A program made the position numbers and the translations under genes. From Sinorhizobium meliloti 4H41 (lineage in GTDB: Bacteria; Pseudomonadota; Alphaproteobacteria; Rhizobiales; Rhizobiaceae), in NCBI RefSeq assembly GCF_000375585.1, contig NZ_AQWP01000002.1:930001-994000 (forward strand): a stretch of 64,000 nt of DNA. Reading direction: 5' to 3'. The notes beneath the pieces were generated by a model. The model was given only the letters and a program-made list of their open reading frames with translations. It was not told where the DNA came from and ran no database searches. The number at the start of each line of letters is the position of its first letter. The stretch's first letter is position 1. Of this stretch, positions 3 through 54,578 are shown one piece after another.

Positions 3-206
3 GCGATCGTGGCCGAATTCTTCGGAACGCCCATTGTCGGCATGGGTTTCCGGATCTCCACGGAAGTGGGTCGCATGAACGTCGACATGGTCTGGGCCGA
101 AATCGCCGTAGCGGCGGTGGCTGGCTCCGTCTTCTACGGGGTGGTCGCGCTCATCGAGCGCGCGGTCACGTTCTGGCATCCGTCCATCCGCAGTGGGCGA
201 GCCTAG
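3..206 (+). CDS. ABC transporter permease, C-terminal end (partial)
   Basis: Only the last 67 codons are present; the frame is open to the left edge (first full codon at base 3), so the gene starts outside the window. The visible part has one hydrophobic segment (about residues 32-52) and a short basic tail, as at the end of a SsuC/ThiX-type inner-membrane permease. It lies upstream of a NMT1/THI5-like binding protein on the same strand, so the two probably belong to one uptake system. Family assignment rests on the tail and on this neighbour and is tentative. The stop codon runs straight into a palindromic repeat at 207. Confidence 0.55.
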   Translation, partial: AIVAEFFGTPIVGMGFRISTEVGRMNVDMVWAEIAVAAVAGSVFYGVVALIERAVTFWHPSIRSGRA

Positions 207-314
207 AGCACTTCCAGGAAAAGTGTGTAACGGTTTTCCGTCCGGAAGTGCGTTGGACCAAAGGGTTGGAGCATTTCCGGGAAAATACGTAATGGCCTTC
301 CCGGCCGAAATGCG
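207..314. repeat. 108-bp two-palindrome intergenic element (RIME1-like)
   Basis: Two related palindromes lie in tandem: 207-252 (arms around AGCACTTCC and GGAAGTGCG) and 270-314 (arms around AGCATTTCC and GAAATGCG). Total length is 108 bp with two large palindromes, which fits my memory of the rhizobial intergenic mosaic element RIME1. It starts directly after the permease stop codon and ends about 48 bp before the next gene. A related copy lies inside coxM at 52622-52720. Confidence 0.75.
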
Positions 315-362
315 TAGTTTCAAAGTGTTAGGACGACAAGGCAACGATAAGAGGGAACTGAA

Positions 363-9459: not shown

Positions 9460-11172
9460 TCAGAAGAGGAAATAGCGCTGCGCCATCGGCAGCACCGTCG
9501 CCGGCTCGCAGGTCAGGAGCTCGCCGTCGGCGCGGACCTCGTAGGTTTCCGGGTCTACCTCGATATGCGGCGTCAGGCTGTTGTGGATCATCGACGCCTT
9601 GCCGATGCCGCCGCGGGTGTTCTGGACGGCGACGAGCTCCTTGGCGACGCCGAGCCTGCCGGCAAGCCCGGCATCGAGCGACGCCTGCGAGACGAAGGTG
9701 ACCGAGGAGTTGGTCCGGCTCTTTCCATAGGCGCCGAACATCGGCCGGTAGTGGACCGGCTGCGGCGTGGGGATGGAGGCGTTCGGGTCGCCCATGGGTG
9801 CTGCTGCGATCGTGCCGCCGAGGAGCACCATGTCGGGTTTCACGCCGAAGAAGGCCGGATTCCAGAGGACCAGATCGGCGCGCTTGCCGACCTCGAGCGA
9901 GCCGATCTCATGGCTGAGGCCGTGCGCGATCGCCGGGTTGATCGTGTATTTGGCGATATAGCGCTTGACGCGGAAATTGTCATTGTCGCCGGTCTCCTCC
10001 TGGAGCCGTCCGCGCTGGCGCTTCATCTTGTCGGCGGTCTGCCAGGTGCGGATCGCCACCTCGCCGACACGCCCCATCGCCTGGCTGTCGGAGGAAATGA
10101 TCGAGAAGGCGCCGATATCGTGGAGGATATCCTCCGCCGCGATCGTCTCCCTGCGGATGCGGCTTTCGGCGAAGGCGATGTCTTCCGGAATGCTGGGCGA
10201 CAGGTGATGGCAGACCATCAGCATGTCGAGATGTTCCGCAAGCGTGTTCACCGTATAGGGCCGCGTCGGATTGGTGGAGGACGGGATGACGTTCGGCTGG
10301 CCGCAGATCCTGATGATATCGGGCGCATGCCCGCCACCGGCGCCTTCCGTGTGATAGGCATGGATCGTCCGGCCCTTGATCGCCGCGATCGTATCCTCGA
10401 CGAATCCGCTTTCGTTGAGGGTGTCGGTATGGATCATAACCTGCACGTCGTATTCATCGGCCACGGAGAGGCAGCAGTCGATGGCGGCCGGCGTCGTGCC
10501 CCAATCCTCGTGCAGTTTCAGCGAAGTCGCGCCGCCGAGTACCATTTCAACGAGCGCTCCAGGCAGCGACGCGTTGCCCTTGCCCGCAAAGGCGAGATTC
10601 ATCGGAAACGCATCGGCCGCTTCGATCATGCGGGCGATGTGCCAGGGTCCGGGCGTGCAGGTCGTGGCGAGCGTACCGTGCGCCGGTCCCGTCCCGCCGC
10701 CGAGCATGCATGTCAGGCCGCTCATCAGCGCCTCTTCGATCTGCTGCGGACAGATGAAGTGTATATGGCTATCCATGCCCCCGGCCGTGACGATCTTGCC
10801 CTCGCCGGCGATAACCTCCGTGCCCGGACCGACGATAATGGTGACGCCCGGCTGCGTGTCCGGATTGCCGGCCTTGCCGATTGCCGCGATCCGCCCGTCC
10901 TTCAGCCCGATATCCGCCTTCACGATTCCCCAATGATCGAGGATCAGCGCATTGGTGATCACCGTGTCGACCGCGCCGCCTTCGCGCGTCACCTGGCTCT
11001 GGCCCATGCCGTCGCGGATGACCTTGCCGCCCCCGAACTTCACCTCCTCGCCATGCGTGGTGAAGTCCTTTTCGACCTCGATGAAGAGCTCGGTGTCGGC
11101 GAGGCGCACCTTGTCGCCTACGGTCGGACCGAACATGTTGGCATAGGCCGCGCGCGACATTCTGTAGGACAT
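9460..11172 (-). CDS. ureC: urease alpha subunit UreC
   Basis: Catalytic subunit (570 aa) that hydrolyses urea to ammonia and carbamate at a di-nickel centre. Expected ligands are all visible: His136 and His138 (SHIHF), carbamylated Lys219 ([10 protein letters not shown]), His248 (MIHTD), His274 and Asp362 (SSDSQAMGR). The mobile flap has Cys321-His322-His323 (MVCHHLSPS). The offset of +2 from Klebsiella numbering is constant, so the enzyme looks intact. It follows the glycosyltransferase-29-like accessory gene after 3 bases. A 160-base gap separates it from the downstream peroxiredoxin. Confidence 0.98.
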
Positions 11173-51818: not shown

Positions 51819-52763
51819 ATGGCCGTGGTAGTGATTCTGGTTCTGCTGGCCGTCGGCTCGGTGTTGTTCCATTTGCTTAGTCCCTGGTGGTGGACCCCGA
51901 TCGCCTCCAATTGGAGTTACATCGACAATACCATCACCATCACCTTCTGGATCACCGGCATCGCCTTCACCGCCGTGGTCCTGTTCATGGCCTATTGCGT
52001 CCTGCGCTTCCGCCACCGACCCGGCAATACCGCCGCTTACGAGCCCGAAAACAGGCGGCTCGAAGGCTGGCTCGCGACGGGCACGACCTTCGGTGTCGCG
52101 GCGATGCTGGCGCCGGGCCTCTTCGTCTGGAACCAGTTCGTCACCGTCCCGCAGGATGCGTCCGAAGTTGAGGTGATCGGCCAGCAATGGCTGTGGAGCT
52201 TCCGGCTGCCCGGCGCGGACGGTAAGCTGGGCACGACCGAAACGCGCGATATCGCCCCCGAAAACGCGCTCGGGGTCAATCGGGACGACGCCGCCGGGCA
52301 GGACGACATCATCATCGAAGGCGGCGAGCTTCACCTGCCGGTCGGCAAGCCGGTCAAGATGCTGCTTAGGTCGGTCGACGTCCTGCACGATTTCTACGTC
52401 CCCGAATTCCGCGCCAAGATGGACATGGTGCCAGGCATGGTCACCTATTTCTGGTTGACGCCGACGCGGACCGGAACCTTCGAGATACTCTGCGCGGAAC
52501 TCTGCGGCGTCGGCCACCCGCAGATGCGCGGTACCGTCGTGGTCGACACCGAAGAAGACTACCAGGCCTGGCTCGCCGAGCAGCAGACCTTTTCGCAACT
52601 GTCCGCATCATTGGAAACAAAAGCAATTCCGGGAAAAGCGTGTAGCGGTTCTCCGTCCGGAGTTGCGACCGAACAAGGAACCGGAGCATTCGCGCTTTTT
52701 GAAGAAGAGCGAGAATGCTTCGGCCCGGCGGCGACAACGGTCGCCGCCTCAGCGGCACAGTAG
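51819..52763 (+). CDS. coxM: alternative cytochrome c oxidase subunit II, with repeat-derived C-terminus
   Basis: Subunit II of 314 aa that takes electrons from cytochrome c at a CuA centre. Hydrophobic segments lie at about residues 3-22, 41-62 and 84-104. CuA ligands are His190 (LHDFYV), Cys225, Glu227, Cys229, His233 and Met236 (CAELCGVGHPQM), all present. The usual protein ends near residue 266 (WLAEQQTFSQLSA). From residue 268 to 314 the frame runs through a two-palindrome intergenic repeat (52622-52720), giving a tail unlike any subunit II. First gene of the coxMNOP operon. Confidence 0.93.
   Translation: MAVVVILVLLAVGSVLFHLLSPWWWTPIASNWSYIDNTITITFWITGIAFTAVVLFMAYCVLRFRHRPGNTAAYEPENRRLEGWLATGTTFGVAAMLAPGLFVWNQFVTVPQDASEVEVIGQQWLWSFRLPGADGKLGTTETRDIAPENALGVNRDDAAGQDDIIIEGGELHLPVGKPVKMLLRSVDVLHDFYVPEFRAKMDMVPGMVTYFWLTPTRTGTFEILCAELCGVGHPQMRGTVVVDTEEDYQAWLAEQQTFSQLSASLETKAIPGKACSGSPSGVATEQGTGAFALFEEERECFGPAATTVAASAAQ
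52622..52720. repeat. RIME1-like two-palindrome element inside coxM
   Basis: The first palindrome (52622-52667, AGCAATTCC...GGAGTTGCG) shares its core GGAAAAGNGTGTANCGGTT and TCCGTCCGGA with the copy at 207-252. The second hairpin (52686-52718, GCATTC/GAATGC with an inner CGCTT/AAGAGCG stem) mirrors the second half of the 207-314 element. It is read in frame as the last part of coxM, without a stop. Confidence 0.8.
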
Positions 52764-52796: not shown

Positions 52797-54578
52797 ATGA
52801 TGGTCGACGTCCGGTCCGGTATTGGCGAGGCACTTCCGCCTCCCGAAGTCGAGGATGTTGAGCTTTACCATCCGCATAGCTGGTGGACGCGCTATGTCTT
52901 CAGCCAGGATGCGAAAATCATCGCCATTCAATACGGCACGACCGCGATCGCCATCGGCATGGTGGCGCTGGTGCTGTCCTGGCTGATCCGGCTGCAACTC
53001 GGTTTTCCCGGCACATTCGAGCTGATCGATGCCGAGCGCTACTATCAGTTCATCACCATGCACGGAATGATCATGGTGATCTACCTGCTCACCGCCCTCT
53101 TCCTCGGCGGCTTCGGCAACTATCTGATCCCGCTGATGGTCGGCGCGCGCGACATGGTGTTTCCCTATGCCAACATGCTCAGCTACTGGATCTATCTGCT
53201 CGCCGTGATCGTCCTGGCCGCAAGCTTCTTCACGCCCGGCGGACCGACCGGCGCCGGCTGGACCCTCTATCCGCCGCAGGCCGTCCTTTCCGGCACGCCC
53301 GGCGGCAGGGACTGGGGCATCATCATGATGCTCTCGTCGCTGATCATCTTCGTCATCGGCTTCACCATGGGTGGCCTCAACTATGTCGTGACCGTGCTGC
53401 AGGGCCGCGCACGCGGCATGACGCTGATGCGGCTGCCGCTGACCGTCTGGGGCATCTTCACCGCGACGGTGATGGCGCTGCTTGCCTTCCCTGCCCTTTT
53501 CGTCGCCTGCGTCATGATGCTCTTCGACCGGCTGCTCGGGACGAGCTTCTTCATGCCGGCCATCGTCGAGATGGGCGAGCAGCTGCAATATGGCGGCGGC
53601 AGCCCGATTCTCTTCCAGCACCTGTTCTGGTTCTTCGGCCACCCCGAAGTCTACATCGTCGCCCTGCCCGCCTTCGGCATCGTCTCCGATCTCATCAGCA
53701 CCCATGCCCGCAAGAACATCTTCGGCTACCGCATGATGGTCTGGGCGATCGTCATCATCGGCGGCCTCTCCTTCATCGTCTGGGCGCACCACATGTATGT
53801 CAGCGGCATGAACCCGTATTTCGGCTTCTTCTTCGCCACGACCACGCTGATCATCGCGGTGCCGACGGCGATCAAGGTCTATAACTGGGTCCTCACCCTC
53901 TGGCGCGGCAATATCCATCTGACGCTGCCGATGCTCTTCGCCCTCGCCTTCATCGTCACCTTCGTCAATGGCGGGCTGACGGGTCTCTTTCTCGGCAATG
54001 TCGTCGTCGACGTGCCGCTCTCCGATACGATGTTCGTCGTCGCGCATTTCCACATGGTCATGGGCGTGGCGCCGATCATGGTGATCTTCGGCGCCATCTA
54101 TCACTGGTATCCGAAGATCACCGGGCGCATGCTCAACGAGGCGATGGGCCAGATCCATTTCTGGGTCACCTTCATCGGCGCCTACGCCATCTTCTTCCCG
54201 ATGCATTATCTCGGCCTCATCGGCGTCCCGCGCCGCTATCACGAGCTCGGCGAGGCATCTTTCGTGACGACTTCGATCGCCGAGCTCAACGCCTTCATCA
54301 GCGTCATGGCGCTTCTCGTCGGCGCTGCGCAGATCCTGTTCCTCTTCAATCTGGGCTGGAGCCTGCGCCACGGGCGGGAGGCCGGGGGCAATCCCTGGCG
54401 CGCGACGACGCTCGAATGGCAGACGCCCGAGACGCCGCCGCCTCACGGTAACTGGGGCGATGAACTGCCCGTCGTCTACCGCTGGGCCTATGACTACAGC
54501 GTCCCCGGCGCGCCGGAGGATTTCATCCCGCAGAACCAGCCGACGCCCGGCCGCCTCAGTCACGAGACCGTCTCATGA
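52797..54578 (+). CDS. coxN: alternative cytochrome c oxidase subunit I
   Basis: Catalytic heme-copper subunit of 593 aa with about 12 membrane helices. The low-spin heme His is in TMHGMIMVIY, the cross-linked His-Tyr in FFGHPEVYIVALPAFG, CuB His-His in WAHHMYVSGM, and the high-spin/low-spin heme pair in VAHFHMVMG. Glu in HPEVY marks the K-channel-type arrangement of A-family oxidases. GGGGAGGAGAT precedes the ATG. Its stop overlaps coxO (ATGA). Confidence 0.96.
   Translation: MMVDVRSGIGEALPPPEVEDVELYHPHSWWTRYVFSQDAKIIAIQYGTTAIAIGMVALVLSWLIRLQLGFPGTFELIDAERYYQFITMHGMIMVIYLLTALFLGGFGNYLIPLMVGARDMVFPYANMLSYWIYLLAVIVLAASFFTPGGPTGAGWTLYPPQAVLSGTPGGRDWGIIMMLSSLIIFVIGFTMGGLNYVVTVLQGRARGMTLMRLPLTVWGIFTATVMALLAFPALFVACVMMLFDRLLGTSFFMPAIVEMGEQLQYGGGSPILFQHLFWFFGHPEVYIVALPAFGIVSDLISTHARKNIFGYRMMVWAIVIIGGLSFIVWAHHMYVSGMNPYFGFFFATTTLIIAVPTAIKVYNWVLTLWRGNIHLTLPMLFALAFIVTFVNGGLTGLFLGNVVVDVPLSDTMFVVAHFHMVMGVAPIMVIFGAIYHWYPKITGRMLNEAMGQIHFWVTFIGAYAIFFPMHYLGLIGVPRRYHELGEASFVTTSIAELNAFISVMALLVGAAQILFLFNLGWSLRHGREAGGNPWRATTLEWQTPETPPPHGNWGDELPVVYRWAYDYSVPGAPEDFIPQNQPTPGRLSHETVS

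Follow-up and report, generated by a model that had tools for sequence, protein, structure and literature searches.

A RIME-like palindromic repeat inserted in frame in the tail of the oxidase gene coxM in a small clade of Sinorhizobium and Ensifer

The gene coxM of Sinorhizobium meliloti 4H41 encodes a cytochrome c oxidase subunit II whose reading frame runs, close to its 3' end, through a palindromic element of a multicopy family. It lies in the stretch of DNA analysed here, referred to as the window, which comprises 64,000 nucleotides (positions 930,001 to 994,000 of contig NZ_AQWP01000002.1, assembly GCF_000375585.1). A presumably mobile palindromic repeat of about 100 bases entered the tail of this gene once and in frame. 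The relevant features, all on the forward (+) strand and in window coordinates, are the following:

51819..52763 (+): coxM, cytochrome c oxidase subunit II, 314 codons (open reading frame, Pfam, NCBIfam, annotation of CP090106.1)
52620..52721 (+): in-frame insert of 102 bp, residues 268-301, KAIPGKACSGSPSGVATEQGTGAFALFEEERECF (alignment of filled and empty sites; base composition at third codon positions)
52622..52719 (+): RIME-like palindromic element AGCA...TGCT, 98 bp (22-copy alignment, covariance model match, fold)
52646..52683 (+): inverted repeat within the element's first half, with arms of 15 nt that are 73% complementary (inverted-repeat search)
52681..52723 (+): the element's second palindrome, with arms of 19 nt that are 84% complementary (inverted-repeat search, fold)
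52722..52763 (+): native coxM tail GPAATTVAASAAQ and native stop, retained 3' of the insert (aligned to the tail of empty-site relatives)
52797..54578 (+): subunit I gene (ctaD/coxN), 3' of coxM (Pfam COX1, E=8.6e-138)
205..318 (+): related intergenic copy of the element (covariance model match, C2:930205-930318)

Pfam places the COX2 domain of CoxM at residues 117-237 (E=4.2e-17), so that the CuA domain is complete before the repeat, as a preliminary description made from the window sequence alone had proposed. The best NCBIfam match, CoxB, scores 136.7 bits, which is below its cut-off of 147.7, and the gene name is taken from the preliminary description. In the GenBank record CP090106.1, labelled S. 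meliloti Ak57, the identical frame is annotated as a 945-bp coding sequence, and the records of strains K101, C101 and M103, in which coxM is unannotated, match the gene over its full length at 97.8%. The start of ctaD follows the coxM stop after 33 bases.

The boundaries of the insert emerge from the alignment with relatives that lack it. Their empty site reads SASSET followed by SPAATAITASAAQ and the stop, and the filled site reads SASLET, KAIPGKACSGSPSGVATEQGTGAFALFEEERECF, GPAATTVAASAAQ and the stop; at the nucleotide level, the insert lies between GAAACA and a codon that reads AGC or similar in the relatives. Since the 13-residue native tail GPAATTVAASAAQ and its stop follow the insert, the repeat provides 34 codons (268-301) and not the last 47 or so, as had originally been assumed. 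The same description had also held that the frame stays open through a two-palindrome element, and in this it was right, as seen from the open reading frame, the inverted repeats, the existence of a multicopy family and the predicted fold: the element folds at -49.1 kcal/mol (z=-4.81), which none of 200 shuffled sequences equalled. The first stem of this predicted RNA fold (about 52623-52666) differs from the inverted repeat found in the same half of the element. An open frame is by itself unremarkable here, as five of the six frames through the window copy of the insert are open. No Pfam family matches the inserted peptide KAIPGKACSGSPSGVATEQGTGAFALFEEERECF, and no Rfam family matches the element at gathering thresholds.

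Of 60 genomes searched for CoxM, 58 yielded some match, many of these to distant paralogues only, and an orthologue is present in 31 of the 32 genomes from the same genus. We compared 30 coxM loci, all from this genus (the orthologues of G031, G037 and G044 lie outside the set), and found the insert in four (4H41, G019, G025 and G017), each with 314 codons; a fifth carrier, G060, belongs to the same species, which brings the 314-codon frame to five genomes. The preliminary description had expected relatives without the element to end near residue 266. The site is indeed empty in the other 26 loci, but their genes extend to 279-284 codons. In a second collection of 80 rhizobial loci, which overlaps with the first, only that of Ensifer sp. 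USDA 6670 (L204) carries the insert. The 79 others end in variable tails of 5-33 residues past the conserved part (10 residues each in two that were measured separately), and this variability suggests that the insertion site is weakly constrained. In a tree of coxM residues 1-265 and 900 bases of ctaD, calculated with both the insert and G060 left out, the four carriers form a single branch with 100/100 support; one change is needed, and a single insertion therefore suffices as an explanation.

These comparisons demonstrate the insertion, its single origin, its exact length and its retained frame. They also leave next to no probability to the views that an ancestral tail disappeared repeatedly, or that the read-through is a sequencing artefact. 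We reject an ancestral tail with many losses, as the insert is missing from 79 of the 80 rhizobial and 26 of the 30 genus loci of these overlapping sets and the carriers form one clade; a tail common to all homologues, which would have spoken against a recent insertion, is thus not what is seen. Likewise, read-through by sequencing error is made very unlikely by separate assemblies that give the same frame, namely the five genomes, CP090106.1 and the records of K101, C101 and M103. An in-frame insertion past the CuA domain with insert-free close relatives, as first suggested from the window alone, is what the loci display. Five of the 30 genus loci (L018, L020, L024, L028 and L029) have a repeat of another kind, about 100 bp long, in the gap between coxM and ctaD, and this gap holds weak matches to the family of the coxM element in L223, L225 and L226.

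The element belongs to a multicopy family. Its best other match in its own genome has E=1.2e-9 in BLAST, and a covariance model built from 22 aligned copies finds, at E<=0.01, at least 124 matches in 4H41, at least 118 in G060 and at least 110 in G025. Because the training set included the coxM copies and an orthologue of the intergenic copy at 205..318, the model scores of these copies are not independent, whereas the BLAST matches are. The relation between the coxM element and that intergenic copy, proposed earlier with the boundaries 207-314, is confirmed by the model. In a plasmid collection, 172 records match, distributed over Sinorhizobium (112), Rhizobium (48), Ensifer (6), Shinella (5) and Nitratireductor (1). 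Among 40 near-full-length copies, the AGCA...TGCT core, measured by the span of the model match, is 98 bp long in 16 and 96 bp in 12, and the left ends read CTAG in 12, TTAG in nine and GTAG in one. The consensus ends, AGAGCA...TGCTCT, form short terminal inverted repeats, as in MITEs. The tetranucleotide CTAG, which resembles the ends of the element, occurs only 18 times in the window, where base composition would predict 218 occurrences and trinucleotides 64. At two places in the 4H41 genome, C1:426258-426531 and C1:76024-76240, there are tandem arrays, apparently of the first palindrome module alone; the repeat element seems to be modular. Elsewhere in the window, positions 10731-11020 match the Rfam family RF02514 (5_ureB_sRNA) with 102.9 bits.

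To describe where copies sit relative to genes, we surveyed 80 of the 89 matches with E<=8.2e-6 in the 4H41 genome, two of them in the window, leaving out nine adjacent array units, and called the surrounding genes with a purpose-made codon model. This survey, which follows the proposal that copies inside coding regions be counted, places 36 copies between genes and 43 across a gene edge, with an overlap of 11-46 bases in 14 and of 1-5 bases in the rest; one, that in coxM, lies wholly inside a predicted gene. We also considered whether same-frame copies in long open frames are further in-frame inserts, and rejected this for the 20 loci fetched (10 from 4H41 and 10 from other genomes, a subset of all such matches), none of which places the copy inside a gene under the codon model.

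Under a stricter score, a gene on the same strand ends no more than 300 bases from the left edge of 55 copies, and in 22 of these the end of this upstream gene lies exactly 2 bases inside the element (TAG in 20, TAA in two), while every other distance occurs just once or twice. Near the right edge, 46 copies have an opposite-strand gene end, seven of which lie 4 bases into the element and four 5 bases short of it. At the left edge of the copy at 205..318 lies the TAG stop (204-206) of the upstream gene, and four relatives without this copy have TGA at the same codon. Relatives could be aligned at eight of ten queried sites, and at five of these eight (sites 1, 2, 5, 6 and 9) the native stop of a relative, TAG or TGA, occupies the same codon, which indicates that the copies there sit on native stops and restore one. 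At site 2 this holds for G017, with the stop one codon later in G025; site 3 is likewise one codon off, and at site 8 the element is incomplete. Site 10 lies in a gene for a xanthine/uracil permease (PF00860; L110:1216-2565, also L100 and L179), which was struck by the 4H41 copy G000:C10:126419-126516 in a stop-bearing frame. Its last 14 codons and its stop come from the element, and it ends in EQFQAKCAAVFRPE, whereas the element-free permease of G017 ends in the unrelated native tail SGSAQKAAAGVEAEI. Together with coxM, this case illustrates that the same family can either replace a C-terminus or be read through, and the sharp concentration of copies at stop codons suggests a route by which repeat-derived C-termini arise.

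How selection has treated the insert can be judged from its substitutions, of which parsimony counts 23 in the five coxM sequences, and from its insertions or deletions (indels), of which there are none. As a yardstick we used orthologous copies of 4H41 and G060 that lie outside genes or touch a gene edge, after removing five matches without aligned bases; these 19 pairs differ by 69 substitutions and 19 indels over 1937 bp (20 pairs, 72 substitutions and 19 indels before one doubly counted place was removed). Three pairs with G025 add 21 substitutions and 8 indels. Scaled from the yardstick copies, which are mainly those of one same-species comparison, about 6.3 indels were expected in the coxM insert and none were found (Poisson P about 0.002), so that the frame seems to be selected. 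At the same time, the inserts of 4H41 and G060 differ at 5 of 102 bases (4.9%), compared with 3.6% in the other copies. With substitutions near the level of other copies and no indels, the bases appear to change about as freely as elsewhere while the frame is kept. The composition of the insert is still repeat-like and not gene-like: its GC content at third codon positions is 0.29-0.38, that of the core 0.78-0.84 (0.38 versus 0.84 in the window copy). The insert also changes fast, with a pooled ratio of non-synonymous to synonymous substitutions (dN/dS) of about 0.41, compared with 0.09 in the core. It is most likely near-neutral in sequence.

It could be argued that the insert is kept for its RNA, with two hairpins that stabilise the coxM mRNA or set the ratio of coxM to ctaD, and with the residues as a side effect. 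The five inserts fold strongly, at -37.9 to -52.7 kcal/mol (111 nt), and the final 120 nt of four genes with an empty site at -29.7 to -38.7 kcal/mol, ranges that touch; in one carrier locus, L004, the second hairpin has gained an A-T match at a position that is mismatched in the other four, and other lineages carry other repeats in the coxM-ctaD gap. Two copies elsewhere, however, fold about as strongly (-43.6 and -43.2 kcal/mol; z -4.04 and -4.29), so the stable hairpins are inherited with the family, and selection on them within coxM may at most be supposed. Moreover, the hairpins lie within an open frame, and the lack of indels indicates constraint on the frame and not on the fold alone. 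We therefore regard an RNA role as unlikely.

Even less probable, in our view, is that the protein has come to use the added residues, as it would if their two cysteines formed a disulfide loop close to CuA. All five inserts contain both cysteines, and the pooled dN/dS of the insert lies below 1, but both cysteine codons fall in stretches common to most copies outside genes, and the sites are few and the clade is small. A broader proposal would combine such a use with a preference of the family, namely that RIMEs seek stop codons and, thanks to their length and open frames, extend or replace C-termini without breaking genes, and that the coxM copy now serves an aa3 oxidase as a functional periplasmic tail with two cysteines. 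As a whole, we consider this highly improbable.

By contrast, we have high confidence, based on the sequences compared, that a one-time insertion of a 98-bp RIME-like palindrome gave the coxM tail an in-frame extension of 34 residues, which is most likely near-neutral and whose frame has been kept. A single event in the common ancestor of a small Sinorhizobium/Ensifer clade would have placed the element 13 codons before the coxM stop, and its 98 bp would make up the 102-bp insert together with about 4 extra junction bases. Given that 102 bp is a multiple of three, and that the strand and frame in which the element landed contain no stop, the native tail and stop were kept. If translated, as appears probable, the insert would add to the predicted protein 34 repeat-derived residues past the complete CuA domain, presumably on the periplasmic side. 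It may be tolerated because this part of the protein is a linker under weak constraint, and selection would act mainly to preserve an uninterrupted frame up to the native stop, which lies shortly before ctaD.

Several points weigh against this explanation. The pooled pairwise dN/dS values (0.41 for the insert, 0.09 for the core and 0.75 for the native tail) combine non-independent pairs and come with no significance test. The indel test leans on that single same-species comparison, in which 10 of the 19 pairs touch a gene edge. Only 15 of the 306 possible single changes in the insert would make a stop, which renders the absence of stops weak evidence. CAAG can be read as duplicated around the coxM insert in the alignment, but across the family the resemblance between the left and right ends of the element exceeds that of shuffled pairs at no better than p=0.07, in a test for target-site duplication. 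Finally, the AlphaFold2 model of CoxM, with a mean pLDDT of 52, is too poor for judging the tail.

The coxM locus shows, for a free-living alphaproteobacterium, how a non-coding repeat became part of a predicted protein, resolved to the base and assigned to one branch. It comes with built-in controls in the empty site, the native tail and the non-coding sister copies, and it allows a test of whether inserts of this type are used by the protein or simply tolerated.

RIMEs, which were reportedly defined by Osteras, Stanley and Finan in 1995, are about 100 bp long and contain two palindromes. The family of the coxM element resembles them in being a multicopy, dispersed rhizobial repeat (171 of the 172 matching records are from Sinorhizobium, Ensifer, Rhizobium or Shinella) and in the length and two palindromes of its 98-bp core. 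RIMEs are described as structured repeats that are scattered between the genes of rhizobial genomes (PMC2573895), whereas the coxM copy lies inside a gene; since the family fits and this copy does not, we call it RIME-like. That the element is a RIME is plausible, by likeness of description, with its identity to RIME1 unproven. In the open-licence literature, mostly judged from listings, we found no report of RIMEs inside genes or of inserts in coxM.

ERIC and other MITE elements are unrelated to the coxM element in sequence and hosts. Intragenic copies of them that contain open reading frames nevertheless resemble the coxM insert, in that they form in-frame fusions upon integration (PMC10969869). 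REPs have been found inside open reading frames in several other bacteria (PMC3733652, BMC Genomics 2013), and the termini of GTAG REPs often supply a TAG stop to flanking frames (PMC3733652). While GTAG/CGTC REPs thus share intragenic copies with the coxM family, they measure 20-40 bp and are tagged at one end by GTAG or CGTC (PMC3733652), unlike the 98-bp, two-palindrome element with its CTAG-like ends. The parallel named in the preliminary description was that of the RPEs of Rickettsia, which are likewise palindromic inserts read in frame in conserved genes; that parallel stands, but the phenomenon is not confined to Rickettsia, as the REPs illustrate and as protein-coding palindromes are known from Rickettsia, Wolbachia and Methanocaldococcus (PMC2996958; PMC10969869). 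RPEs differ from the coxM element in family, size and host, and also in that nearly half of them lie in open reading frames (PMC10969869), compared with one of 80 copies wholly inside a gene here. Copies within frames of unrelated genes hence make up no large share of the coxM family, the other case being the copy that replaced the permease end. In-frame palindromic inserts are already known, and coxM is a new case of that process.
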